A stretch of 64,000 nucleotides of DNA from assembly GCA_000827205.1 (NCBI GenBank), contig KN832570.1:278879-342878 (forward strand), in the 5' to 3' direction. Every line of letters begins with the position of its first letter. Position 1 is the first letter of the stretch. This document shows, piece after piece, positions 12,710 to 31,213 of the stretch. The notes under the pieces are model-generated. The model ran no database searches. It was not told where the DNA came from and saw nothing but the letters and a program-made list of their open reading frames with translations. The translations under genes and the position numbers were made by a program. The stretch comes from Plicaturopsis crispa FD-325 SS-3. Taxonomy: Eukaryota; Basidiomycota; Agaricomycetes; Amylocorticiales; Amylocorticiaceae.

Positions 12710-13289
12710 GGTGACGGTAAATGTGTTTGGATGGATGTAGGAAGATGGACGATGTTTCTACGGGACAGTGCATTTATATGCGCCTGCCCGCTGCTCAGGC
12801 GTCCTTACGCCTCAAAAGGACATCGGTATACATCATGCCCACATCATGATGACGACGAAGTGTACCGGGGCGGATGCAAGACGCTACATTCCCCATCGAG
12901 GAGCTTTCCGGCGAATTTTAGCTGCTGTGTTTTGAAATCGGCGCGAGCATGCCCTGTTTGACGAACTCAAGTACTGCCGGTAGGTCACCTTAGTTATAAA
13001 AGTGCCTGGCGTGCCTCTACGTACGCACCTATTCCGGTTACGGAACGCCCCACCGGCACCCACGAAACGTTCGAAGGTTTCTACTTTGCAATCTGGGGTT
13101 GCTCTGGAGTGCGAGTCCTGATGATCGGATGTGGCTGAGGCCCACGCACATGGCGACGTTGCCGAATCCGACAGATCATCTCCGATCGGATTCAGCCGAT
13201 GCCGCCTTGATAAATGATCAACTCGAGCAGAACTTGCACCAGACCCTTTCATCCCCTCCCCCATCCCCCACCGTTCCCTTCCCACAATC
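12710..13289. other. Intergenic, 580 bp, divergent promoters
   Basis: Shared upstream region of the small hydrophilic protein gene and cyclophilin. It contains a pyrimidine-rich tract just before the cyclophilin ATG, as is common for highly expressed fungal genes. No coding exon is supported. Confidence 0.45.
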
Positions 13290-14096
13290 ATGTCCAACGT
13301 CTTTGTGAGTCCATTTTCCGAAACATCGCCCCCATCGCGGGCATCCTGTCCAGATCGCAGGCATCGCGGTGGGGTGTGTGTGCGTGCACCGATTTTCTTA
13401 CTGATCGACTGCGCTCGTTTTTTTCCACGTCTCGCGCAGTTCGATATCACCATCGACGGCAAGGATGCTGGCCGTATGGTCTTCAAGCTGTACGACGACG
13501 TCGTCCCCAAAACCGCGAAGAACTTCCGTGAACTCGCAACCGGTGAGCACAGCACGATTGGGTACACCCGATTTTTTCGCTCATGAGGTCATTTTCCTAG
13601 GCGAGCACGGCTTCGGCTACGCGGGCTCCTCGTTCCACCGTGTGATCCCCCAGTTCATGCTCCAGGGCGGTGACTTCACCAAGGGCAACGGCACCGGTGG
13701 AAAGTCCATCTACGGCGAGAAGTTCGCTGGTCAGTTTCCACTGCGCGATTGTCACAGGCCTTAGAATACTGACGTGGCTGCGGTTTGTAGACGAGAACTT
13801 CCAGCTAAAGCACACCAAGCCTGGTATCCTCTCCATGGCCAACGCCGGGAAGAACACCAACGGCTCGCAGTTCTTCATCACCACCGTCACCACCTCGTGG
13901 TTGGACGGCGCCCACGTCGTTTTCGGTATGCATCCCCCCCTCTCTCTGTACTTTTCCTGTGAATCAATACTCACACAAATGGCGCGCAGGCGAGGTCGTT
14001 GAGGGCTTTGATATCGTCAAGAAGGTCGAGTCGCTCGGCACTGCCTCGGGCAAGACCAAGGGCACGATCACCATCTCCAAGTCGGGCGTCGTCTAA
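13290..14096 (+). CDS. Cyclophilin A-type peptidyl-prolyl cis-trans isomerase
   Basis: Five exons (13290-13304, 13440-13542, 13601-13729, 13791-13925, 13990-14096) join in phase to 162 residues, the usual length of cytosolic cyclophilin A. The protein starts [20 protein letters not shown]. It carries the active-site [16 protein letters not shown] (catalytic Arg, Phe, Met and Gln), [30 protein letters not shown], and the Trp and His pocket residues in [12 protein letters not shown]. It catalyses proline isomerisation during protein folding and is the family bound by cyclosporin A. There is no signal peptide or extension, so it is cytosolic/nuclear. The first exon is only 15 nt long. Confidence 0.97.
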
Positions 14097-14656: not shown

Positions 14657-16854
14657 TCAACCGGTCCTAGTAAGTACAGCCGCCTTCGTCGCTTCCGAGC
14701 GCGGTTTGATAGACGCCTTGAACGGTAGCGGAGCACTGCGAAAGTCAGATAATGTCGAAAACCAAGATCCAACCACTAAACGGACTCACACGACGATCCC
14801 AGACGTATACTCCCCCGACGGCTCCACACACGAACCATCCTCGTCCACAGCCTTCCCGACGTCGAACACTGCCAGCACGGACACAACAGTGATCCACAGC
14901 GACGACATCGCCATGTACCGCCCCGGGCACACGCGCCGCCCGAACCCGAACGCGGCGCAGGCGGGGTCTTTGACCGCGGGGTCGATGTGCCCCTCGGCGT
15001 CTAGGAATCGTTCTGGGAGGAAGGCCGAGGGGTTGGGGTAGACGGTCTCGTCGTGGAGCATGGCCCTGACAAATTGCTTGTGTTACTTCGTGGTCGGGAG
15101 GAGGTGGAATGGAATGTGTACCAGGTGTTTGGGATCACTATAGATTTAGCTGGGATGCGGTAGCCGTTGTAGGTGTCCTCCACTGTTACCACATGGGGAA
15201 CGCCTGCACCATAAAGTCGCATATCATTAGCTACAGTTCCCGCTCGTCGTCATCTGAGCCACAAACTTACTTTGCGGTGTGACAGGTGCCCATCTGAGCA
15301 CCTCCTTCACGATAGCATCGATGTACGGCAACGACGGCTGGTGGCTGAAGTCTGGGAGGTTCCCGTGGCCTACGACGGCGTCGATTTCTTCTTGCGCCCT
15401 TTTCTGCACCTCTGGGTTGTATAGCATAGCGAGGATGAATGTTCTGAGAGTTGAAATTAACTGCGGAATCATGCGTGAGTGCTATGGTGGTGATGAGTTT
15501 GACGAGTGGCTCACTGTCTCGCTCCCAGCTTGGTACGTATCGTAGAACGGCAAGTCAATGAGATGCAGAGACCGGCGAGCCTAAAGTGTATGGACCCTCA
15601 CCAGAATACATGGAACCAGCAGTCGCTTTGATCAGGTACTCCTGGCGACTATTGTCAGACTCGTCGCTACCTTGTACGGCTTCAAGGCATCTCGCGGTGA
15701 AATTCGACACCGAAGCACCTTTCATCTGAGCGTATAGGTCACGTCAGTGCGGTCACAGTGCAGACGCTGGGGGCGCACATACAAAATTGGCTTTCGCGAT
15801 ATCGAACGGGATATTGAACATATCGTCCGCGATCATATGCCATTCCCTAGCTTTCCTCTTGAACCCGGCTCCCGGCATCCATTCTGGCACGTATTTCACT
15901 GTGTCATATCCATGAGCGGAGGAGGAAGGGGTGAGATGTGACGATGGATGCACGTACGGAAGGGCAGGGACTCTACGTAGAATGCCCCAGGACTCCCCGC
16001 TTCGGAAAGCGCCTCCATCGCGAGGTCTGCAGTGCGCACGTACGGATCGTTGTCTGGTTGTACCTTGATGCCATATGCGATATCTATAATGACCTTCCCA
16101 GCCAGACTATATTCCGTCTAAGACATCATATAAGCTGACCAAGAGTAGCTGCGTCACTCACTGGGCGAAGTGCGCAGAAAAATCATCATGGAAATCTAGC
16201 AAGCGTCGAAGGAGGTCGTGCGTAGCCTCTATTTCAAGCGGCCTGAATTGGAGCGCAGCCTTTGGGTGGAATTCGCGGTGAAATAGACGGCGGATCGCTC
16301 TCCATGTCTCCCCGTAAGGTATCCCGGATAGAAAGCCTTCAAATCCCATTCTAAAGCCGAGGGACCAAGTGATGAGCTTTTGCTTAATCTGAAGGTGTAT
16401 CATGTGGGCTTACAGCTCAGTTACCATGATGAAAGGTGGCCTAAGTAGATAATGAGAAAAGTGTGAACACTGTTCTGAATACGATAGAACAACCTGCTAG
16501 AGTAGATCGAAGAGCGTCTCTCTAGAAGTTCGTTTGCGATTTCGGCTGAATTGATGATAACCACCGATGTCCCCGCCAAATCGACGTGCAGTATGTCCGA
16601 GCCTGCGGTTCCTCAGAAAGCAATAAGCAACAAGTGACGATGTGCACTTGAAGGTTGCTCGTACCGTAAGTGCGGCCCCATTTCTCGTACACCTGCGCTT
16701 CATGACCCTTCGGCATCTGGAACAGATTACCCACGATGGGCAGTGGTTTTGGACCGGGGGGCAATGGCAGACTCGAGTGTCGTCGTCTCCGTAGGTGCAA
16801 GTAGGCGAGAAATAATGCTGCTGCGAAGGTGAGGAGTAGGGAGGGGTCGATCAT
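14657..16854 (-). CDS. Cytochrome P450 monooxygenase 2, divergent member of the local family
   Basis: Starts MIDPSLLLTFAAALFLAYLH (membrane anchor) with hinge LPLPPGPKPLPIVGN. The exon plan follows the other local P450s: a short exon RPPFIMVTEL, then MGFEGFLSGIPYGETWRAIR, KYVPEWMPGAGFKRKAREWH, a 14-nt microexon, EVLRW (ExxR), LPERF, and FGFGRRVCPGR with the heme cysteine. The last exon ends VLTRTG. The I-helix reads AGSET followed by Leu rather than AGTDTT, so the usual Thr pair is changed. The splice sites I traced keep frame throughout. It is a microsomal oxidase with unknown substrate. It lacks the promoter box shared by P450 genes 1, 3, 4 and 5, so it may be regulated differently. Confidence 0.9.
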
Positions 16855-17710
16855 GGTGGGAGGGGATGCGGTAGATACTTCTTGGAATTATCAACGAGGA
16901 GGCACATACATATACGCAGGGAGGAAACATGGAGGCTGCTTGGTACCGATCAATATCCCGGATATCCTATCGGCTGCTATGTTCGAGAAGCTTGGGCAAT
17001 GTTGGACAGGCACCCTCACCATATTTGAACACACGGCGAAATCTTCCATCCGTCGAACACATGTAATCTTCTGGATCAAGCCTTCCATCTTGTTACTACA
17101 GGCGAGGACATTACTCCGACGAGAGAGAACACACATAAACCAGCCGGCGGCGACGATGGTGCAACTACGGCGGGCTTGTCAATGAGGGTGGGATAGGATT
17201 TCGAAAGATTTGAACAATACACACCTGCAGCTATCGACAGCGTTAACAGCCTCTGGATTAGTATGTAAAACGCTATCTGAGTCTCATGGACTTTGATGCG
17301 ATTGAGGTTCCATTCCAGCTGTTAATTTCGCTTGTGTCTCATGGCTTGCATACAACTGCGAGTCACACAGGAGGCGTCGTGATAAGCCTTGGGGCTCGCA
17401 CTGCGCTGTGTCAGAGGTCCAGTAGCGCGAGGTTTAAGCTTAGCTAGCGCTGTAGCACATTGAACTTTGAAGTTGAAGTATCGACCAGTTGAAGAGAGGA
17501 TTCAAAAGGTTGACGCTAGTAAGGACATCATTTCAACTCCGCGAATATGCGCTCTCTAGTATTCTGCAAAACTCACCGTCCCTCGAGTCCTTACGCCAGA
17601 TTTTGGCTGCTCAAATGTCGGTCCTTGACGCTTACGATGTGTATCGTATCCAATTTTGTAAGTCACGAACATTGTCAAAGTTATTTCGGGGACCGTCGCT
17701 CGTTATTTTG
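16855..17710. other. Intergenic between P450 gene 2 and the transposon, 856 bp
   Basis: Presumed promoter of P450 gene 2. The conserved box of the other P450 genes was looked for and not found. No coding exon is supported. Confidence 0.4.
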
Positions 17711-17849
17711 CAAGGACTGAATATACCCCATTCTGCGCGGACTGACTTGCCCTCGTTTTACCGGGACACCCGATTTGGACATTACGTCTGAGCTTCATTT
17801 CTCTTCATTTTCTTCATTTTGTCGACCTTTAAGTACCGCGCTCTATGTC
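17711..17849 (+). repeat. KDZ left terminal inverted repeat, outer part
   Basis: Matches the reverse complement of 31110 down to about 30975 with moderate identity; shared words include CAAGGACTGAATATACCC and TTGCCCTCGTTTT. The repeat is interrupted at 17850 by the nested element and picks up at 24768-24810. Confidence 0.8.
17842..17849 (+). repeat. Target-site duplication of the nested element, left copy
   Basis: TCTATGTC, identical to 24760-24767. An exact 8-bp repeat flanking the terminal repeats defines the insertion. Confidence 0.85.
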
Positions 17850-17882
17850 AGGACCCCGGACAATGCCTCAAGAGGCTGGATC
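17850..17882 (+). repeat. Terminal inverted repeat of the nested element, left
   Basis: 33 bp beginning AGGACCCCGGACAATGCC. It matches the reverse complement of 24727-24759 at 29 positions. Confidence 0.85.
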
Positions 17883-17888
17883 GTGGCA

Positions 17889-17984
17889 CGGACAAAAATC
17901 GCTTTTTTCGGTCCCAGGGCCTGTTTTTGTACGGACAAATTTGAGGTCCAATTCTGACATGGCCAGGACGAATGGCCGGACAAG
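17889..17984 (+). repeat. Subterminal CGGACAAA repeats, left end of the nested element
   Basis: Copies at 17889-17900 (CGGACAAAAATC), 17932-17940 and about 17976-17984 (CCGGACAAG). The same word recurs near the right end in the same orientation. Subterminal repeats commonly serve as transposase binding sites, but that role is inferred here. Confidence 0.55.
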
Positions 17985-18280
17985 ACCCACGAGATGCAGT
18001 ACGGCCAGATGTGTGAAACGGACGTGGTCCTGTGGGTCAGTGGTAACGGTCGCAAGCTTTTCTGACCTGGACAAATTTGCTGGTAGTACTGAGTTCGAGT
18101 CACTCAGAGGCCAATTGTTTTCTTACCCAGCTTGACCGAGCTCATCCCGTAATATTTATTTGCTACTGCAAGTTTTTGCGTATTGCACAGCCATTTTTGA
18201 GCCACTTCGTTGCGTCCAGACGTCCGGCACACTCTTGCTCATTCAAGCTCTATTAACTTCTATTCTTTGACCTGGCTAGT

Positions 18281-21200
18281 ATGGACATCACCGATGTCGA
18301 CTCGACCACTGCGACATTCTCTACAGAAGAGTGGATTAACAAGGGAAAGGAATACCCGACAAAAGATGTTCCTAATGGACTACAAGCTGCTCGACGAGAC
18401 GTCCTGACAATCCCCGACGAGTTTCAGAAAAAACTGTTGCCAGAGGATGCATCCGTTGCCAACCTGCTCGAGGAGCGCCTCCCCAAGGAATCCGCAGACA
18501 TAGTCAATATACACCCACACCATTGGTTCAGTCGAGATGCCCCGCTTGACAACGTCGACTTCCTTCTTACTCGACCTATCCCATCCCAAGATTTTCTCTA
18601 TAAACTGGAGGATGCGTTCGGTCAAGCATGGTTTGATGGTCACCTGTCAATAATTGACCATAGGTTCAATAACGGGATGGACCGCCTACCGCTGTGGAGT
18701 TTGACGGTGTGGAAGGAGCTACAGTACAGGATCAGGGCACGTTCAAAATGGGCGAAGAGCGACAAATGGCTTAATACCGAATCCTCGAGTCCTGATGTCA
18801 AAGCAGCACTAGAACAAGCACGCTCCTGTTTCCGCTTCGTTCCATGGCAGGCAGAGATCGGCAGTCTGCGGGGTGTTTATACGACCAGCCTCACGTCGAT
18901 CCTATCGAACAGCTGGTTGTCCGACGACCATATCGACATGATGATGGCGGACCTCGCGCGGCGGGTAGATGCTGATCCCAAGCTACGTGCAACGGTGATG
19001 ATCGCGCAGACGGACTTCTGTCGTGCTGTCGAATCTGCGGGGACAAAGCGTCAGTACACGAAGAAGCAGACGCCGACGCTCTGTCGCTACGAGGCAGACA
19101 TTAAAAAACGGAAGATACGACACCTGTACTTCCCAGTCTTTGTCGGCGGTAATCACTGGATAGCGGGCTGCATCGATTTTGTTGAGCATAGAATTTCCTA
19201 CGGTGAGACAGTCTCTGCGTACCTTTGTACAGGCCACTCCAATGACTCACACCATCGGTTAGGAGACTCACTCTCTCGTTCGAACCCACCACCCGCAGCA
19301 TTTATAAAATGCCTGCAAAATTGGTTGCGCGCATGCTTCAAAGGGCCTTTCCTCGCCATGGGAGACGCTTTGCCTCACGGGGACCAGCGGGACGTGCATT
19401 CATGTGGGATCTGCACCGACAACACGATAGCGCACGCAGCTCTAGGGGATGCCCTCTGGCATCCTAGCCGGCATGCGTTAGAGCGCGCAAATCGCTTTGT
19501 GGCCTTGGTGAAACATATCACAGATGTAAGTGAATGTTACATCTCCGATGAACCTTACACGGAGCTTACCTTTCTCCTCCAGCCTATGCAGAACGTAGAG
19601 TGCAATGCGCTTTCTGACCTACACACGGACGTCGCGAGCAACCGGGAGATTAGCCTTACACGTGCTAGAGACCACCACGATGTCGCTGACCTTGCATCGC
19701 CCGCATTCACCGCCGACTCGTCGGACAAGTCACCATGCTCTAAATCGCCGCCGCATTCGCTTCCTCGCCTCGATAACACCCTCAATACTCCATCCGCTTC
19801 CCCGCCATCACGTCTATCCCAGCATCGTCTTAGCCCCAAAGCGGTCTTTGATATCCCGCTCGATCTGCCCACATCCGTACCACCCTCCGACGATGGTAGT
19901 AGCGGTGTCGATATCCCTATGGACACAGATGCCGACGACGAATTAACTAGTGATTCACTAGCGCTCTCGCTGTTTGATCAACAGTCAGACGTTAGCATGC
20001 CTAGTATTCAGGGCCAGGAGAGTGCCAATGATATGGACGTACACAGTAGTCTCGACAACCAGTCTTTGAACGACGGCTTGTCATCTGAAGTCAAAGGGCA
20101 CTCTGGCTCACAATCGGATGCCAGGCCGTCATCGCTGTCGTCATTTTTTGTGCCGAAATTCAAGAGAAAGCACACTCACGACAACTCCGAGACGTCCTCA
20201 CACTCCAGCGCGATACCCAATTCGCAGACAAAACGAAAGTCGAAGAAGAGACCTAAGGTCACTTCAGAGGATCACCTCGCTGGACCTAGCGGGATAAGTC
20301 GTTCGGCGCGAACATCCAAAGCGGCGAGAGAGGCGGTAGCGAGAGGAGAGTTCCAAGTAGACGAGGACCAGCTAGACAGGTGGAAGAGGAAAATCGTAAA
20401 GCTCGACGAGGATGCAGAGTTCCATCCATCTGATATTCGACAAGTCCGACACTCGCGCTGTGGCAAATACGTTCGCGTTAAGGAGCCATACAACATGTCT
20501 CGATTTGAAGAGCACATCTACCGCTGCACTCCGAAAAAACAGAAGTCTGCGCGCGGTGCTGGTAATCAGACGTTGTTTGCCATGGCGGAGAGGTTCAAGT
20601 GGTCAAAACTATCTGCCGCTACCAGTAGCGCTAGCGCTCCCACGGCGTCATCGACCACTCCACCAATGCGACCTTGTCCTGGCCTTACACATGCCGATGA
20701 CCCTAGGATCTCCCACTATCTAGACAGGACCGCCACGCCTGGTGGAGGGGCTAGGTCCGTCACTGTCATTGCCAAAGAGCGTTTCCACAAACTTTTCTCC
20801 CTACTCAGCAAGGAAAAAAAGGATGAGGTCCTCGACGTGCAAACGGGTGAGCATGTCTGGCGAAACGATCACCAGCACACTCGCGTGTTCTCCACACAGT
20901 GCAAACGTGAAGTTCAACGTGAGCTGGATGGCGAACGCTGCATGCCGTGTGCACAGTGCCTTCGCTTGTTGAAACACGGAGCGTTCAAGGTTGCGTTACG
21001 CAAGCCCATTCCAAAGGATGAGAACCTCCCGTTTGTGAATCACCGTTATCGAAACAAGGCTCTGGGCGATCTGTATGCTCGGGTGCGCGGCCTGCGAGAC
21101 ATAATCGAGACAGCGGTACGGTCTAATATCAAACCTTTATTGTCGACAAGTGAACTGACGGGCGTATATCCGGATATTAGGACGCCAAGAACACTCCGTG

Positions 21201-24200
21201 TATTCGATATGCGCAAGCCACTCTAGCGGGCAAATTTGACAACGCAGAAGTATTTACTGGATTAGTTGAGGCAATGGTCCAGAAACTCGACCGCGAGGAG
21301 CGAAGTGTCGGCATGCAAAATTTCAAGTATGCGCCTGCGTATGAAGAATTCATCCACATCGTCAAGATACATAGTCCGCGTGCACACCGCTTTTTGATGC
21401 AGCACCTTCAAGCTCCCGCTGCTCGCTCTCTCAGGTATGTGAGCTGAAGTCGTGGTTTGTAGTCGTATATGACAGTTGACCACTGGTATTTGATACTCAG
21501 GCGCACTGAGGCAAAGAAGCCACGCTTTCCAATGAAAGTCTGCGAACGTACCTTTGAACTCGTACTCGAATGTCTCCGGGCACTTGGTTACGACGGTCCT
21601 GTCAACCTTAGCTGCGACGATTCTAAACTGTTCGCATCTATGCGACTATATTGGGATCCCGAAGAGAAGGCTTGGTTCCTTGTTGGGGGCACTGATGGTC
21701 CTATCCGTGTCGCAAACCCAGATGAAGCAAAAGAATGGCTCGAGAACCCAGAGCTAATCAAAGCTACTAAGGTGCGTGAACCCGTCTGACGGACTCATGC
21801 GAGGTATTTTGCTCACGAACGTATCACAACGTATCAGGTCCGGCTTTGGTGTCTGCAAATCCCACTGCCCAAGGTGACACCGATCATCGTCGCTGCAAAA
21901 CCGATTCCAGAAACCCTCGACGCCGACACACTGCTCGGTTATCTCGAAGAAATTCTTTACGGACTCATCGATCGCGACATCAAGGTCGTATCTTATTCGT
22001 GTGACGGGACTGAAGTGGAGCGTGCAGTCCAGCGCAAACTGGAAGCAAAATCGACACATACGATCAAGCATACGATCCCCAACCCTCGCAAGAGCTTTCC
22101 GGACACCGTGATCACAATTATCACCGTTCGAGGCCAGGCGATCGTCATGATTCAAGATTCTAAGCACGCCGCTAAGACATTTCGGAACAATCTCTTTTCT
22201 GGCGCACGGTTGTTGACTTTCGGAAACCATGCTGCCATGTACCGTCACATACGAGAAATCGCGTTCGAAGAGGGCTCCCCGCTGTATCACCGGGATGTCG
22301 ACAAAATGGACCGCCAAGACGACAATGCGACAGCGCGATTGTTCTCCGCTGAGACCTTGCAGTTTCTCGCAGATCATCATCCAGAATACATGGGAGAGAT
22401 TGTTTATCTATTCGTGTTCGGGGAGCTAGTCGATGCATACCAGAATCGCTCCATAGGCCACGCTGAGCGTATCAAACTTGTGCTTCGAGCAAAGTATTTC
22501 CTCGAGTCGTGGGAGGTGTTTCTCGAGACTTCGGGGTACAGTCGCACGCAGTATTTTCTATCGCGAGAGGCTGTTGACATCGCACGTATCATCATCGACG
22601 GTTTCATTGGCCTCGTCTTCGTCTATCGCGATCACATCCCTGACATCTACCCTCTACTTCCATGGCTTCACTCGACAGAAGGTTGCGAGCACGTTTTCGG
22701 GGAGTCTCGACAGATTGTCAAGGACTTCACGATGCTCGACTTTTTCTACATGACCGTCAAGATTGCTATCAAAATGCGCGAGGCCGTCCTTCGAGGACAA
22801 GCATCCGATCCTCGTGCGCAGGCTAGCGGTTATTGCCACACATATTTTGATAGTCACGGTATCGACCTCATGGCTCTGGCAACATTCCCAACGGACGACG
22901 AAATTCAAAGCGCTGCAAGACTAGCCGCCGACGAGTGCGACAATCTCATTGCGCTGCTCGGGCTTGTTCCTCATCAGCTTACAAGGCAGCAGTCGTCGTC
23001 GATGGCGTCCTTACCCGGGATCAGCAGTTGGTTCACAGAGAAAGATTTCGACGAGGACTCTGAATCGGATTCGGATGATGTTGACTTGCCTTATTATGAT
23101 TCGGAAGAGGAAAACGACGCAGAAGAGCTCCAGGCTTTGCTCAATCAAGAGGAGGAAGACCAATGGAACCGTACAAATAGGCAGGACGACAAGCTTATGG
23201 CTTTGACGGGCGCAGCGCTGTCGGTTATTGCTGACGAAATGATTAGAGTGTGAGTTCCTTATCATTGTGGACCGTCTGGACCAAGTACTGCTCATTGACC
23301 TTCGGATTGAATCATCTTAATGCCAGACAAAGAATGCCAGAAATGGACGAAGAGGCCCGCGAGGAGTTTTACGCAGAGGAATGTTCTCACATCCGGGACG
23401 CTTCGAACATCCGTCTTCCCCCACTACAGCTACCCGACGAGCGGGCTCGACTAGTGGGCCTGCAAGACAACGGCGCTGACACATTCGACTTCAGCATATT
23501 AGTCGTCATGCGTCGCCGTCATCAAACTCGGCAGGCCGCCCTCGGAGTGCGTACCAAGGGCAAGGATGAACCAAACCATAGTGGCTCTGGTGAGAAGCCC
23601 GAAGTATCTATGCGAAGGCAAATCATCCGGCAGTTTCACGCCGTCATTCGCGAGCAGCAGAACGTTGCGGTAGGGACAGGGGTTGAGCGAGAAGCGCGAT
23701 GGCGTGCACCTGCGCCCGGAGGCAGGGACGGTACAGTAAACGGGCAGTCTTCTGCTAGTGCAGCCTCGGGGAATGCAGCTAATGCAGCTGCCGCGGCATC
23801 GAAGGCGGCAAAAGAGGTACATATACGCCTATTTTTTGAAGAAACAACTAACATAAATTCTTCGGCCTTGTTTGCAGGCTGCAGCACGCCGGCGAAAGGT
23901 GTTTGCTACTGCTAATGTTCCGTGCGTCTCAGACGTGGCAGACGGACGCGTCACGACGCTGCGGCCTGTTCAAATCGACGACTTCGCTATCATCCTTACG
24001 AAAGATGGTTTAATGATAGGACGTGGTTCGTACATACTTCTGTCGTAGCAGTCAAATTCCTGTTCTCTGACCTGAATGGGCTGATAGTCATCGCGCTGTA
24101 TTCCAAGACCGGCGGAAAAAACGGCAAGCACGCAGCAGTCACAGACTCATCCAACATCTGCGCCATCTCGTACCTCGGGTTCCAAGTCTACGAGCAGGTT

Positions 24201-24443
24201 TTTAACCGTCAATTTCGCTCAATTACGCAGGCTACGGCTCGTCTACAGACAAAGCAATTCGCCCTACTGCCGTCAATCGCATTTCTCTGCGTCATCTCTT
24301 CCAAGCCAACTACCTCCGCCACGAGTTTAGAGCTTCCGATCGCTGACTACGAGCTCTTCAAGAAACTGCGGGATGGTGAATCCAGTCTGAAGCACGCTAC
24401 GACCTTGTACAACAAAAGGGCGAAGGGGCAGGCTACCGATTAG
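18281..24443 (+). CDS. Transposon protein: Ulp1/C48 cysteine protease domain joined to a transposase-like region
   Basis: Seven exons (18281-21115, 21181-21434, 21501-21771, 21838-23249, 23327-23816, 23878-24025, 24088-24443) join in phase to 1,921 residues. Residues ~200-420 resemble a Ulp1 SUMO-protease fold: WLSDDHIDMMM, His292 in GGNHWIAG, Gln369 and Cys375 in HGDQRDVHSCGI. The usual Asp 17 residues after the His is Glu here (SYGETV). A long Ser/Pro-rich linker with KRKSKKRPK follows, then a Cys/His cluster (CGKY...RFEEHIYRC) and CMPCAQC. The downstream region has NLSCDDSKLF, SCDGTEVERAV, IQDSKHAAKTFRNNLF, VDKMDRQDDNA and HSTEGCEHVFG. This layout recalls RNase H-like P/THAP9 transposases, by inference. 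An acidic stretch and an Ala-rich segment near the C-terminus follow. The last exon is least certain. Confidence 0.75.
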
Positions 24444-24539
24444 ACAACTGTCCAAAATTCAATGTTACAGTGCTCAATGTTTCTCATAAATTGGTGACTT
24501 TCCGAGCAGGCAGTACATTTTTGAGGTCTGTATGCCGTG

Positions 24540-24670
24540 TTCGGACGGTTTCGCCGTTTTTCAAGGCCTGTTCGTCGAGCACGGACAAAATTCCGGTTTT
24601 TCGAGGCCATTTTCGAGGGTCGGACAAAAATCACAAATTCCTGACGCCATGTATGAATTCGGACAAGAAT
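24540..24670 (+). repeat. Subterminal CGGACAAA repeats, right end of the nested element
   Basis: Copies at about 24582 (CGGACAAAATT), 24621 (CGGACAAAAATC) and 24660 (CGGACAAGAATC), in the same direction as those at the left end. They are therefore direct, not inverted, between ends. Confidence 0.55.
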
Positions 24671-24726
24671 CGCCCAAATTTTGACGATTTTTTGCAGGAC
24701 GAAAAGGTCGATTTTGGCCAAAATCT

Positions 24727-24759
24727 GATCTAGCCTCTGAAGGCATTGTCCAGGGTCCT
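24727..24759 (-). repeat. Terminal inverted repeat of the nested element, right
   Basis: Reverse complement begins AGGACCCTGGACAATGCC and pairs with 17850-17882 with four mismatches. Confidence 0.85.
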
Positions 24760-24767
24760 TCTATGTC
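24760..24767 (+). repeat. Target-site duplication of the nested element, right copy
   Basis: TCTATGTC, identical to 17842-17849. Sequence after it continues the interrupted KDZ terminal repeat. Confidence 0.85.
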
Positions 24768-27126: not shown

Positions 27127-29941
27127 CTACGTTTCCTTAGCCATACGATTAATCTTATTCCGGTTCCATACGTCCAAGAACACTTTCGTGAATTGTATCG
27201 CATGGTCATACGCCATGAAGCTTACGCTTTTGCGTATACGCCCCATGCCTCCATTGCCACATTCAGCGGCACTTGTATTAGAGGCTCGGATTTGTGGATC
27301 GAAGCGCATTGCGTTGCTTGCAAAACAGGCTTGACCGCAGCGAGTGTGGTCATGGGCGTGCATCTCATCGATGAGGAAACGTGTGTGTCCGAAATAGCGC
27401 GCCTCACGGACGAGACAGTACGGTGCAAGTTGACATGCGAAGTCGTAGATGATGACTTTGGGTGCGACGGGGAAACGTGTGTATATTGCAGAAAAGACAT
27501 CATTTCGTCCCTCCGCTATTGGGATTGAATGGAATCCCAAGCAAATGCTGTGAGTGCACCATAACACCATGATGCCCCCGGTCATACTGTTCTTCGAATA
27601 TGTCTTGAAGAATTTATTGCAGTCGCCCATCTGCTCTGCATCGCGGTCTAATGGCTTTGCATCATGACGAAGCTTCGAGTAATATCGACGCCGTCGAATG
27701 GCGGGAAGGCCATAGCAGGTGCCCGTTTCTTCCCACCTCTGCTGCGACATATTATAATCCGGCGGTGCTGGATCATGCTGGGCAAGCTGCTCATAAACGG
27801 CCCTCGCACGTTCAGCTAGCCATCGAGCGATGTTCCGTAACTCGTTCGGGATCTGCGTAGCATTGTCTCGGTAGCTCTTGAGTACAGTTCCGAATGCAGG
27901 ACATAAGGATTGCAACCAGGGAGGTGCATCACGGTTTGACTGTGCGACAATAAAAAGTAGCTCAATCGCATCATACGGAACGAGCTGCAAGACAATATCG
28001 GGTGCCGCAATTTGTTGTATAAGGGTTCGGTACGGCTTGTAATGCGGGGACCCAGTTCCACCACCGATATAGATGCGAAGGAGGCTCATAAGATCAGGAT
28101 AGAGATTGGAGAGTTTAGATGTGTTGGGAAACTCAGTCGGAATGCGCACGGCCGTGATCTCGAGCAGTTTTGATATCAAACTGCGCAAGTCTGCCTCGAT
28201 TATGGCTGGCAAAGCGCGAGCCTTCCAAGAGGATATTGACTCGATAACCTCACTGGTATCTGTTACGCGCGTGGGCGGGGATACGAGGGGTGTCAATTTA
28301 GAGTGATGCGTCCCCAGACTGACCCCATCGACGATCACGATTTCTGGCGACGGGCCACAAGTCGGACATGTCATTCCGCTCTCGAGATTTTGCAGTCGAG
28401 TGAACGCAAACCATGCGCGGACAAATGTTTCGTCGGAGCAGAAGGCATTATCAAGTCCGTATTCCAAGTATGCTCGGCGGACCGTCAGGCAAAACGCTGA
28501 GAACGGAGTCTCCGAGGCAGTGTATGCATTGGTGAAACCGTTGAGTAGCTCATGTGAAAAAAGCATGGAATTGTTCCAGTTGAATATACCATATTGGCCC
28601 AAGTCAGGTCCTATCTGACGACGGACATGGCGGCACACAGGGCAAGGATATAGCTCAATAGTTTTGCTGTACTGTGTTGTAAGACCAAACACGGTGGTAC
28701 GATGTGCCGTGGACTCATGCGACGACAAGGCCTTAGCAGCAGACAGGGTCATGCCGCAGCAGCATCGCGCAGAGTCATCAAGTGCGAAGTGAAGTTGTGC
28801 CGCATGCGATGGCCTTGAAGCCAGCAGTGACGGCTCGAACGACAACGAACACCACCGAGGAGGCGGGACAGCAACATACGAGATAGGTGCTTTCCTCTGC
28901 CGTCCCGCAGCCTGCACGAGAAGGGTGCCATCCTCATCGTTCACCGCATCAGCAACATGCTCGGCTGGTTCACCCTCAGCATGTGTTATGAAGCCCGCTT
29001 CGACAGAAAATGCAACAGCGTGGGGCCTATGCTTGCACGCATCGGAGTAGCGGCAAGACTGACAATGCCAGCGACCATCCCGCTGAAGGGATACAATGCT
29101 GCGCTTTCCGGACTCGTAGCGACCAGTAGAGGATATACAGGAGAATATATGTGTATCGTTGAAAGGTGTGGTATGAAGTAAGACTGCGGGTGGGGTAGGT
29201 GTCGGTGCTATGAGAGGTAAACGAAGGAGGGTGTCCATTTGTACTTGAAAGACCTGCTGGTGGAGGCATACGTGACCTGCGCGCCACCGAGCACACGTAC
29301 ACGCTATCGCATACTCATTTGGGCCACGCGGAAGATAAACAACATGGTAATATGTCCCTATCTATGGCATGCTGTGAGCGACGTACACACAAGGAGGGGA
29401 GGCATCGACGTACGTGAAGCATACCCTGTGAGATATCCCAGTCTTGCACGACCCACAACGAGGTGTCTACCCGAAACGTTGTGCCGACTTTGTTCAACGC
29501 ATACCAATACGCATCGCATGCGCTGTCCGGGACACCAGAGGATGTGGCAGCCAGCGCAGCATCCCGGTCACGGAAGTACATGTCGTAAAGTAGCTCCGAC
29601 TCGGATGCATCATCCAGAGGCCAAGAAGGGGCGGCCGGAGACGGGGCCATCAGCGAGGGCAGGGGTGTCGAGGGGATGAATGGTAGAGGGGGCATATATG
29701 AAGAGTGGTGCAGTGACGTGGCGGCAACCGACGGTCCTGGCGCCGAAGGAGCAGGCGGTGGAGCCGTCCGAATGGTACTATCGAGCACCGTTCTCGACCG
29801 CTTTCTCGTGGGCCCGCTTTGATGGCCATCGACGACGACGAGCTGACTTCCATTGCGAGTCCTCGAGTGCAACGAGCCCGCCGTATCAACGACGAGTCGG
29901 CTTCCTGTACGGCGGTGCGGTTTCGAAGGCTGTGAAGACAT
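27127..29941 (-). CDS. KDZ transposase with N-terminal cysteine clusters
   Basis: Two exons, 29414-29941 and 27127-29361, join in phase (DISQGMLH to IGTYYHVVYLPRG) to 920 residues. A disordered basic N-terminus (TRKRSR) is followed by CTCARWRAGHVCLH, WHCQSCRYSDACKH (SWIM-like), RCCCG...H and CPVCRH...TCPTCG, clusters of the kind known as CxC domains of KDZ transposases. The catalytic part shows VIVDGVSLG, VIIYDFACQL, DEMHAHDHTRCGQACF and NTSAAECGNGGMGRI, matching the conserved order of the family, with acidic residues in the D, D and E blocks. It would catalyse excision and integration of the element from its inverted ends. No break was seen, so it may still be competent. Confidence 0.88.
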
Positions 29942-30934: not shown

Positions 30935-31110
30935 GGCAGAAGTTGGGCAGCACGACGGTGGGGAAAGACAGGACAGTCGACGTGGTGGGAACAGTACATA
31001 TACGTCGCAAAAATGAACAGAAATGAACACAACACGTGTCGTCCCAATTGGGAGTCCTCGCAAAACGAGGGCAACTCAGTCCTTGAAAAGTAGGGTATAT
31101 TCAGTCCTTG
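30935..31110 (-). repeat. KDZ right terminal inverted repeat
   Basis: Reverse complement from 31110 begins CAAGGACTGAATATACCC. It aligns with 17711-17849 and then with 24768-24810. Confidence 0.78.
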
Positions 31111-31213
31111 CTTTTTCATCAGCGGCTATCCCTTATTTCGAAGTATCCAAGTAGAATTGCTGGAGTTCGGGCCGGCCCGCTTCAAGTTCGGCGCACATTG
31201 AACGCTTCGGCGC

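Follow-up and report, generated by a model that had tools for sequence, protein, structure and literature searches.

A probable P-like DNA transposon of Plicaturopsis crispa with a Ulp1-type protease region and a DDE transposase in one predicted protein

The element at the locus

A DNA transposon of 6,910 bp lies at positions 17850-24759 of a 64,000-nucleotide stretch of the Plicaturopsis crispa FD-325 SS-3 genome. This stretch, hereafter the window, is C17:278879-342878, where C17 is one of the 49 contigs (33.2 Mb) of the genome searched. Its inverted ends are 33 bp long, and the flanks TCTATGTC / TCTATGTC form a perfect 8-bp duplication. The inverted repeats start with AGGACCCCGGACAATGCC at 17850, the inverted partner ends at 24759, and 28 of the 33 bases match. 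Between them lies one predicted spliced gene, in which a Ulp1/Peptidase_C48 region precedes an Asp-Asp-Glu (DDE) transposase region. The element is probably an autonomous, P-like cut-and-paste transposon that carries its own SUMO-type protease in one protein. Both halves, or parts of them, are found in the same order at four further loci of the genome (C19, C46, C24 and C2). The fusion recurs in divergent copies and is no peculiarity of a single one. The features of the window element are as follows.

17842..17849, no strand: left target-site duplication TCTATGTC
17850..17882, plus strand: left terminal inverted repeat, 33 bp, starting with AGGACCCCGG; 28 of 33 bases match the right end
17857..17983, plus strand: left array, CGGACAA at 17857 (within the inverted repeat), 17889, 17932 and 17977
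18281..21115, plus strand: exon 1, with the N-terminal module, Ulp1 domain, linker, and zinc-finger-like and Cys-cluster regions
18863..19570, plus strand: Ulp1/Peptidase_C48 region, about residues 195-430, with H292, candidate acid E309, Q369 and C375
20450..20527, plus strand: zinc-finger-like motif (H/C)x2Cx17Hx(3-5)C, residues 724-749, seen by eye in the window, C19 and C2 copies
20741..20749, plus strand: Gly-Gly(-Gly) motif, residues 821-823, at the corresponding place in the window, C19, C46 and C2 copies
21181..21434, plus strand: exon 2, with a helix-turn-helix (HTH)-like region, residues 990-1031, and a weak match to PF12017 (Tnp_P_element)
21501..21771, plus strand: exon 3, with the first Asp, D1069, at 21616-21618
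21838..23249, plus strand: exon 4, with D1176 (22003-22005), D1227 of the DxxH motif (22156-22158), D1319 (22432-22434) and E1404 (22687-22689)
23327..23816, plus strand: exon 5
23878..24025, plus strand: exon 6
24088..24443, plus strand: exon 7, with the stop codon at 24441-24443
24582..24666, plus strand: right subterminal array, CGGACAA at 24582, 24621 and 24660
24727..24759, minus strand: right terminal inverted repeat
24760..24767, no strand: right target-site duplication TCTATGTC

The whole window was scanned for pairs of identical 8-mers, separated by 1.5-12 kb, that enclose inverted 18-mers with three or fewer mismatches. The scan returned one case, the window element, among 13,149 pairs. 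No case was found in 7 of 10 shuffled sequences, and the other three were set aside for self-matching N runs. A chance origin of the ends is rejected by the scan and the shuffles. A genome search for an empty insertion site returned just the window's own flanks.

Gene structure

The gene model has seven exons, separated by six GT..AG introns of 61-77 bases, and gives a frame of 1,921 residues with a single terminal stop. Introns this short, like the KDZ transposons, fit a fungal genome. An alternative 3' splice site for intron 4 gives 1,919 residues. The preliminary description of this DNA had reported a frame of 1,921 residues in seven exons, AGGACCC ends and 8-bp duplications, and each of these was recovered. 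Its span of 18281-24443 holds for the coding part, and the element proper is 17850-24759.

Introns 1-3 have the same positions in the C19 copy (splice sites compared by eye), despite cores that are 39% identical. This conservation speaks for genuine introns and a single protein. Other, automatically chosen placements of intron 1 were rejected because residues that align with C19 would be lost. That the protease and the transposase are two adjoining genes is highly improbable. The exon 1 frame does stop at 21226 when read unspliced, as two genes would have it. Against this, exon 1 is open for 945 codons and runs from the Ulp1 domain through the linker to the zinc-finger-like and Cys-cluster regions, and the intron positions are conserved in the divergent copy. 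The Ulp1 frame of C19 can also be joined to the next frame by four possible frame-keeping GT..AG introns of 51-96 bp.

No Pfam family above the cut-off was found for the zinc-finger-like motif, and none at E<=1 for the last two exons (23878-24443). These exons resemble the C-terminal frames of the C19 and C2 copies by eye (GxFVI...IGxVLxIYxKxGxKxxxH) and perhaps form a small chromatin-type domain.

The protease region and selection on both halves

The window protein matches PF02902 (Peptidase_C48) above the cut-off over residues 212-307 (4.5e-7). His292, Gln369 and Cys375, which had been named beforehand as residues of a Ulp1-type protease, are all present at those positions. PF02902 is also above the cut-off at C19 (8.5e-6), C46 (3.2e-5), C24 (1.2e-5) and C2 (1.6e-4, with two exon pieces joined manually; the individual C2 frames are without a match). 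The domain is present in all five loci that have both the N-terminal and the transposase part (C17, C19, C46, C24 and C2). The His, acid, Gln and Cys residues are kept in 5/5 copies, with Gln and Cys six apart, as judged by eye.

The copies at C46 and C24 are visibly damaged, and each is located at the end of a contig. On C2, the relative has a length of 6,395 bp, perfect 33-bp ends beginning AGGCCCCGGG and a duplication of CGAGCGCT. A separate search for inverted ends of the C19 and C24 copies found none.

Selection was measured in 11 comparisons, all among C19, C46 and C24, with the window copy in none. Between C19 and C46, the ratio of nonsynonymous to synonymous substitution rates (dN/dS) is 0.17 for the Ulp1 module (bootstrap 0.12-0.23). 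Two pieces of the linker have ratios of 0.07 and 0.21, and the segments with the HTH, D1, D2 and E have ratios of 0.03-0.06. The synonymous rate (dS) in this comparison is 1.05-2.07. It is similar in the Ulp1 module and most transposase segments, as expected if they were inherited together. In the comparisons with C24, Ulp1 has dN/dS values of 0.37 and 0.22, and D2 has values of 0.07 and 0.10. With C46 and C24 damaged, these ratios are averages over working and perhaps partly decaying time. Where tested, in the related copies, both halves are under purifying selection.

These values bear on the idea that the protease domain is a functionless passenger in decay, which is very unlikely. The Ulp1 parts do change more quickly than the catalytic core (dN/dS 0.17-0.37 vs 0.03-0.10), and the acid residue of the window copy is Glu. 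Against decay, dN/dS is well under 1, with bootstrap ranges that exclude 1 in 3/3 Ulp1 comparisons, and His, Gln and Cys are retained in every copy.

Small elements and terminal repeats

The genome was searched with the end pattern of the window element. Nine exact places and one with a single mismatch account for the window element and four small elements. The preliminary description had proposed such a search for AGGACCC...GGGTCCT ends with 8-bp duplications, and it yielded these four elements of about 340 bp, each duplicated. The small elements are 339, 339, 340 and 348 bp long and have ends in common with the window element. Each of the four has its own perfect 8-bp duplication (GTCGCAGG, GACGAGCC, GCTCCTAC and GTCTACAA). 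Compared with the small element on C9, two of the others show 96% identity and the third shows 77%; the window element matches it at its left end with 81% identity over about 103 bases. The search additionally gave one place with two mismatches and many with three. A reversed-pattern control gave 21 and 25 places, and the looser matches are therefore taken as mostly chance.

The motif CGGACAA was picked post hoc, after the ends had been inspected. It is present four times in the left 431 bp (9.3 per kb) and three times in the right 316 bp (9.5 per kb). The gene has 0.32 per kb and the remaining window 0.11 per kb. The four small elements contain 6, 6, 6 and 5 copies, mostly 32-45 bases apart, with wider middle gaps. 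The repeats are likely binding sites.

The transposase region and its assignment

The C-terminal half contains the DDE set D1069, D1176 and E1404 plus a DxxH motif. D1069, D1176, D1227 with H1230, D1319 and E1404 are invariant in all three rows (window, C19 and C2) of an alignment of about 550 residues, for which pieces were joined manually. In this core, C19 is 39% and C2 is 24% identical to the window copy. The sequence blocks CDDSKLF, SCDGTEV, QDSKH and RQDDNA, singled out in the preliminary description, are present in the window; their C19 and C2 counterparts differ in sequence but can still be recognised, with the key Asp and His residues kept.

In the Drosophila P transposase (DmTNP), the residues compared are D230, D303, D339 (DxxH), D444 (GTP/Mg) and E531 (PMC8230255). 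The order D/D/DxxH/D/E in the window protein is the same as in DmTNP. The distance from the second D to E is 228 in the window, 228 in DmTNP and 239 in THAP9 (values for the last two from PMC8230255). The P superfamily motif is described as a DDE triad with [C/D](2)H after the second D (PMC8230255, section 3.4), and it is present in the window protein at the motif level only. PF12017 matches just upstream of the core in the window (E=0.0025) and in the corresponding stretch of C19 (0.17), both below the curated cut-off, and no other P-type profile supports the assignment. From the order, in part the spacing, and the sub-threshold PF12017 match, the transposase is likely of the P-element/THAP9 type.

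Several results weigh against this assignment or against the wider reading of the element. The D1-D2 spacing is 107 in the window vs 73 in DmTNP, and the D2-to-DxxH spacing is 51 vs 36. PF12017 is below the cut-off in the window and C19 and is not reported for C46, C24 or C2. Pfam models of the P-type catalytic core have no match to the core of this family. A THAP domain is reported neither for exon 1 (E<=1) nor for the core (E<=10). Sequence searches of the PDB returned nothing relevant, and single-sequence AlphaFold2 models were unusable, with predicted local distance difference test (pLDDT) values of 40 for the core and 35 for the Ulp1 part. The protease acid is Glu309 in the window and Asp in C19, C46, C24 and C2. 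At the DNA level, the full-length window element is single-copy in the genome. No inverted ends were found for C19, C46 or C24 in a scan that required an exact 8-bp duplication. The C2 element has one CGGACAA near one end and none near the other, so that the arrays are absent.

The THAP domain is known from animal P members, so its absence here is not taken as decisive for a fungal element. An RNase H fold with a GTP-binding insertion domain is a further feature of the P superfamily. The pair PF21787 and PF21788, which comprises TNP-like_RNaseH_N and TNP-like_GBD, matched nowhere in the genome, but the search controls also matched nowhere. The weak Pfam hits Antimicrobial_6, DUF7745, SnoaL_2, LIX1, DUF4257, ER and Rua1_C were all below the cut-off and were discarded.

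Transposases of the hAT superfamily have a CxxH motif with a Cys and a C-terminal hAT dimerisation domain. The same element and fusion might have a transposase of another or unnamed superfamily with 8-bp duplications (hAT, Zisupton/KDZ or an own fungal lineage), which is a genuine but unlikely alternative. It agrees with the lack of a match to any P-type Pfam core model, and Zisupton likewise makes 8-bp duplications (PMC12730594). Against it, neither the KDZ transposase domain PF18758 nor any hAT Pfam family is reported when the core is searched at E<=10, and exon 1 has no hAT family either, though a neighbouring gene gave CxC4 at 1.9e-42 and KDZ at 3e-5. The window motif is DxxH, not the hAT-type CxxH, and its Asp is as in DmTNP. 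The D2-E distance and the weak PF12017 match in two copies favour P.

The claim of a P/THAP9-like transposase in the preliminary description thus stands in part. The enzyme is of the DDE type and the D/D/DxxH/D/E order fits; P membership is unproven and profile support is weak. Because of this profile support and the unusable fold models, the element is filed as P-like and not as a member of the P superfamily.

Other loci in the window and the genome

The window element is nested within a larger one, with inverted ends GCAAGGACTGAATATACCC... at 17710-17780 and 31041-31111. This enclosing element contains a KDZ-type transposase gene at 27127-29361 (minus strand) with a CxC4 cluster (PF18717, 1.9e-42; PF18758, 3e-5, just under the cut-off). 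No clean outer duplication was seen at its inverted ends. Two frames of the window, at 13218-13764 (plus) and 16522-16887 (minus), bear a resemblance to a cyclophilin and a cytochrome P450, respectively.

A genome search with PF02902 gave eight matches. The element family accounts for three of them, at C17, C19 and C24. By eye, the two matches at C2:1586 kb resemble a cellular Ulp1 gene, and that on C11 may be a cellular Ulp2. The other matches, at C17:37 kb (L061 1390-2016) and C27 (L057 1261-1677), are Ulp1-like open reading frames (ORFs) that are alike by eye. Neither of these two loci has a tblastn match to the window at 1e-4.

On C37 (L021 8419-8946 and 4527-4748), a Plavaka-like ORF, with PF18759 at 3.4e-4 and below the cut-off, lies about 4 kb from a transposase fragment of the element family (52% identity over 56 residues). 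None of four scans of viral contigs gave a relative, and a scan of genome contigs led nowhere.

The N-terminal module of the window protein also matches an ORF on C6 (1.1e-13; L020 2696-6110), upstream of a pogo-like DDE_1 transposase (PF03184, 1.4e-10). In the C6 ORF, the His, Asp, Gln and Cys residues are in place by eye, and PF02902 is not reported. This locus is a possible second, unrelated pairing of Ulp1 and a transposase in the genome. Further copies of the module are found on C1 (L022 3459-5909) and C43 (L023 4346-4879); one is interrupted and one is truncated by a contig end. In the N-terminal module tree, the C6, C1 and C43 sequences are separated from C19, C46 and the window with a support of 87, or 98 without C43. 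This tree is unrooted and has long branches and partial rows, and module exchange is thus not demonstrated by it.

Proposed mechanism

In the proposed mechanism, the single spliced gene would give a protein of 1,921 residues, with a C-terminal half that acts as an RNase H-type (DDE) transposase in the style of the P element and THAP9. The transposase would use its HTH and zinc-finger-like regions to recognise the CGGACAA arrays and the 33-bp ends. It would then excise the element and insert it into new DNA, with joints staggered by 8 bp. The ends and duplications are good evidence for cut-and-paste transposition by the DDE half. GTP is a possible cofactor, since D1319 is near the place of the GTP/Mg-binding D444 of DmTNP, by spacing only. 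The N-terminal Ulp1-type cysteine protease would most likely strip off SUMO or a tag like it. Its substrate may be the transposase itself or host proteins present at the ends or target, among them silencing or repair factors. Such deSUMOylation may counter SUMO-linked silencing or inhibition, or engage repair. The data themselves show the structure of the element, a gene model that is consistent, the family of the protease, a conserved fusion, selection acting on the two halves of related copies, and small relatives that share the ends. The action on SUMO or a similar tag is inferred from the protease family, and the superfamily, the DNA contacts, GTP use and present activity are inferred as well.

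Enzymes of the Ulp1 clan cleave after Gly-Gly. The Ulp1 part might therefore process its own protein, with a cut at the Gly-Gly near residue 821 that frees the transposase, instead of or besides SUMO removal. This is rather improbable. The known cleavage preference agrees with it, as does the Gly-Gly at the corresponding place in three lineages within a poorly conserved linker (PGGGA in the window, MGGGA in C19 and C46, LGGVS in C2). Against it, the flanking residues vary by lineage, the Gly-Gly of C2 is shifted by one or two columns in the alignment, and the motif is possibly just structural. As read from the sequence, residues 821-823 are a possible self-cleavage site or a possible structural turn. 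A wider version would be a virus-like polyprotein, in which the Ulp1-clan protease cuts at Gly-Gly 821-823, frees the transposase and also strips host SUMO, as an exchangeable cassette (compare the C6 module upstream of the pogo-like DDE_1 transposase). It is likewise a long shot.

Comparison with known systems

No Ulp1 domain joined to a P-type transposase was found among the matches listed from the open-access literature. The preliminary description had suggested a poorly described fungal family. P elements of rust fungi with 8-bp duplications are in print (PMC3164196), and the suggestion holds to the extent that no Ulp1-bearing one is among the matches listed. In the window family, a single chain apparently holds both the protease and the transposase, and the pair has been retained in three divergent lineages, with both halves under selection. 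Ulp1 proteases occur on several unrelated transposons, and the fusion makes their role there directly testable.

Ginger1 and Mutator-like transposons are known carriers of Ulp1 domains (PMC2836005). As here, a DNA transposon carries Ulp1, and in Ginger1 it is on the transposase itself. Unlike the window protein, Ginger1 has Ulp1 C-terminal to a Gypsy-integrase-like transposase, and both groups belong to other superfamilies and other hosts (PMC2836005). The fungal KDZ/Zisupton and Plavaka elements are also DNA transposons with accessory enzymes, and Zisupton has 8-bp duplications (PMC12730594). Their accessory enzyme is TET/JBP; protease, SUMO and peptidase are mentioned 0 times in the portion of PMC12730594 available, and no KDZ match is reported for the core of the window protein.

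The Drosophila P element and THAP9 differ from the window protein in an N-terminal THAP domain where the latter has the Ulp1 module, in the D1-D2 and D2-DxxH spacing, and in the lack of a significant sequence match. They are alike in 31-bp ends (33 here), 8-bp duplications, an HTH (HTH-like here) followed by RNase H (putative here) with D/D/DxxH/D/E, and a D2-E distance of 228 (PMC7776569, PMC8230255). Miniature inverted-repeat transposable elements of the P type (P-MITEs) with 8-bp duplications are described in Anopheles (PMC1562414). These are in an animal host and have 5-310 copies per family vs four here; like the small elements of P. crispa, they share the ends and 8-bp duplications of full-length P elements in one genome (PMC1562414).

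The P elements of rust fungi in Repbase include P-1_PSt, P-1_MLP, P-2_MLP, P-N1_MLP and P-N2_MLP (PMC3164196). No Ulp1 domain is named for them in the available portion of this source, with which the comparison is by description only. They are likewise basidiomycete and P-type, and the Melampsora ones have 8-bp duplications and non-autonomous partners (PMC3164196). If the window element is P-like, P-like transposition in basidiomycetes would reach beyond rust fungi.

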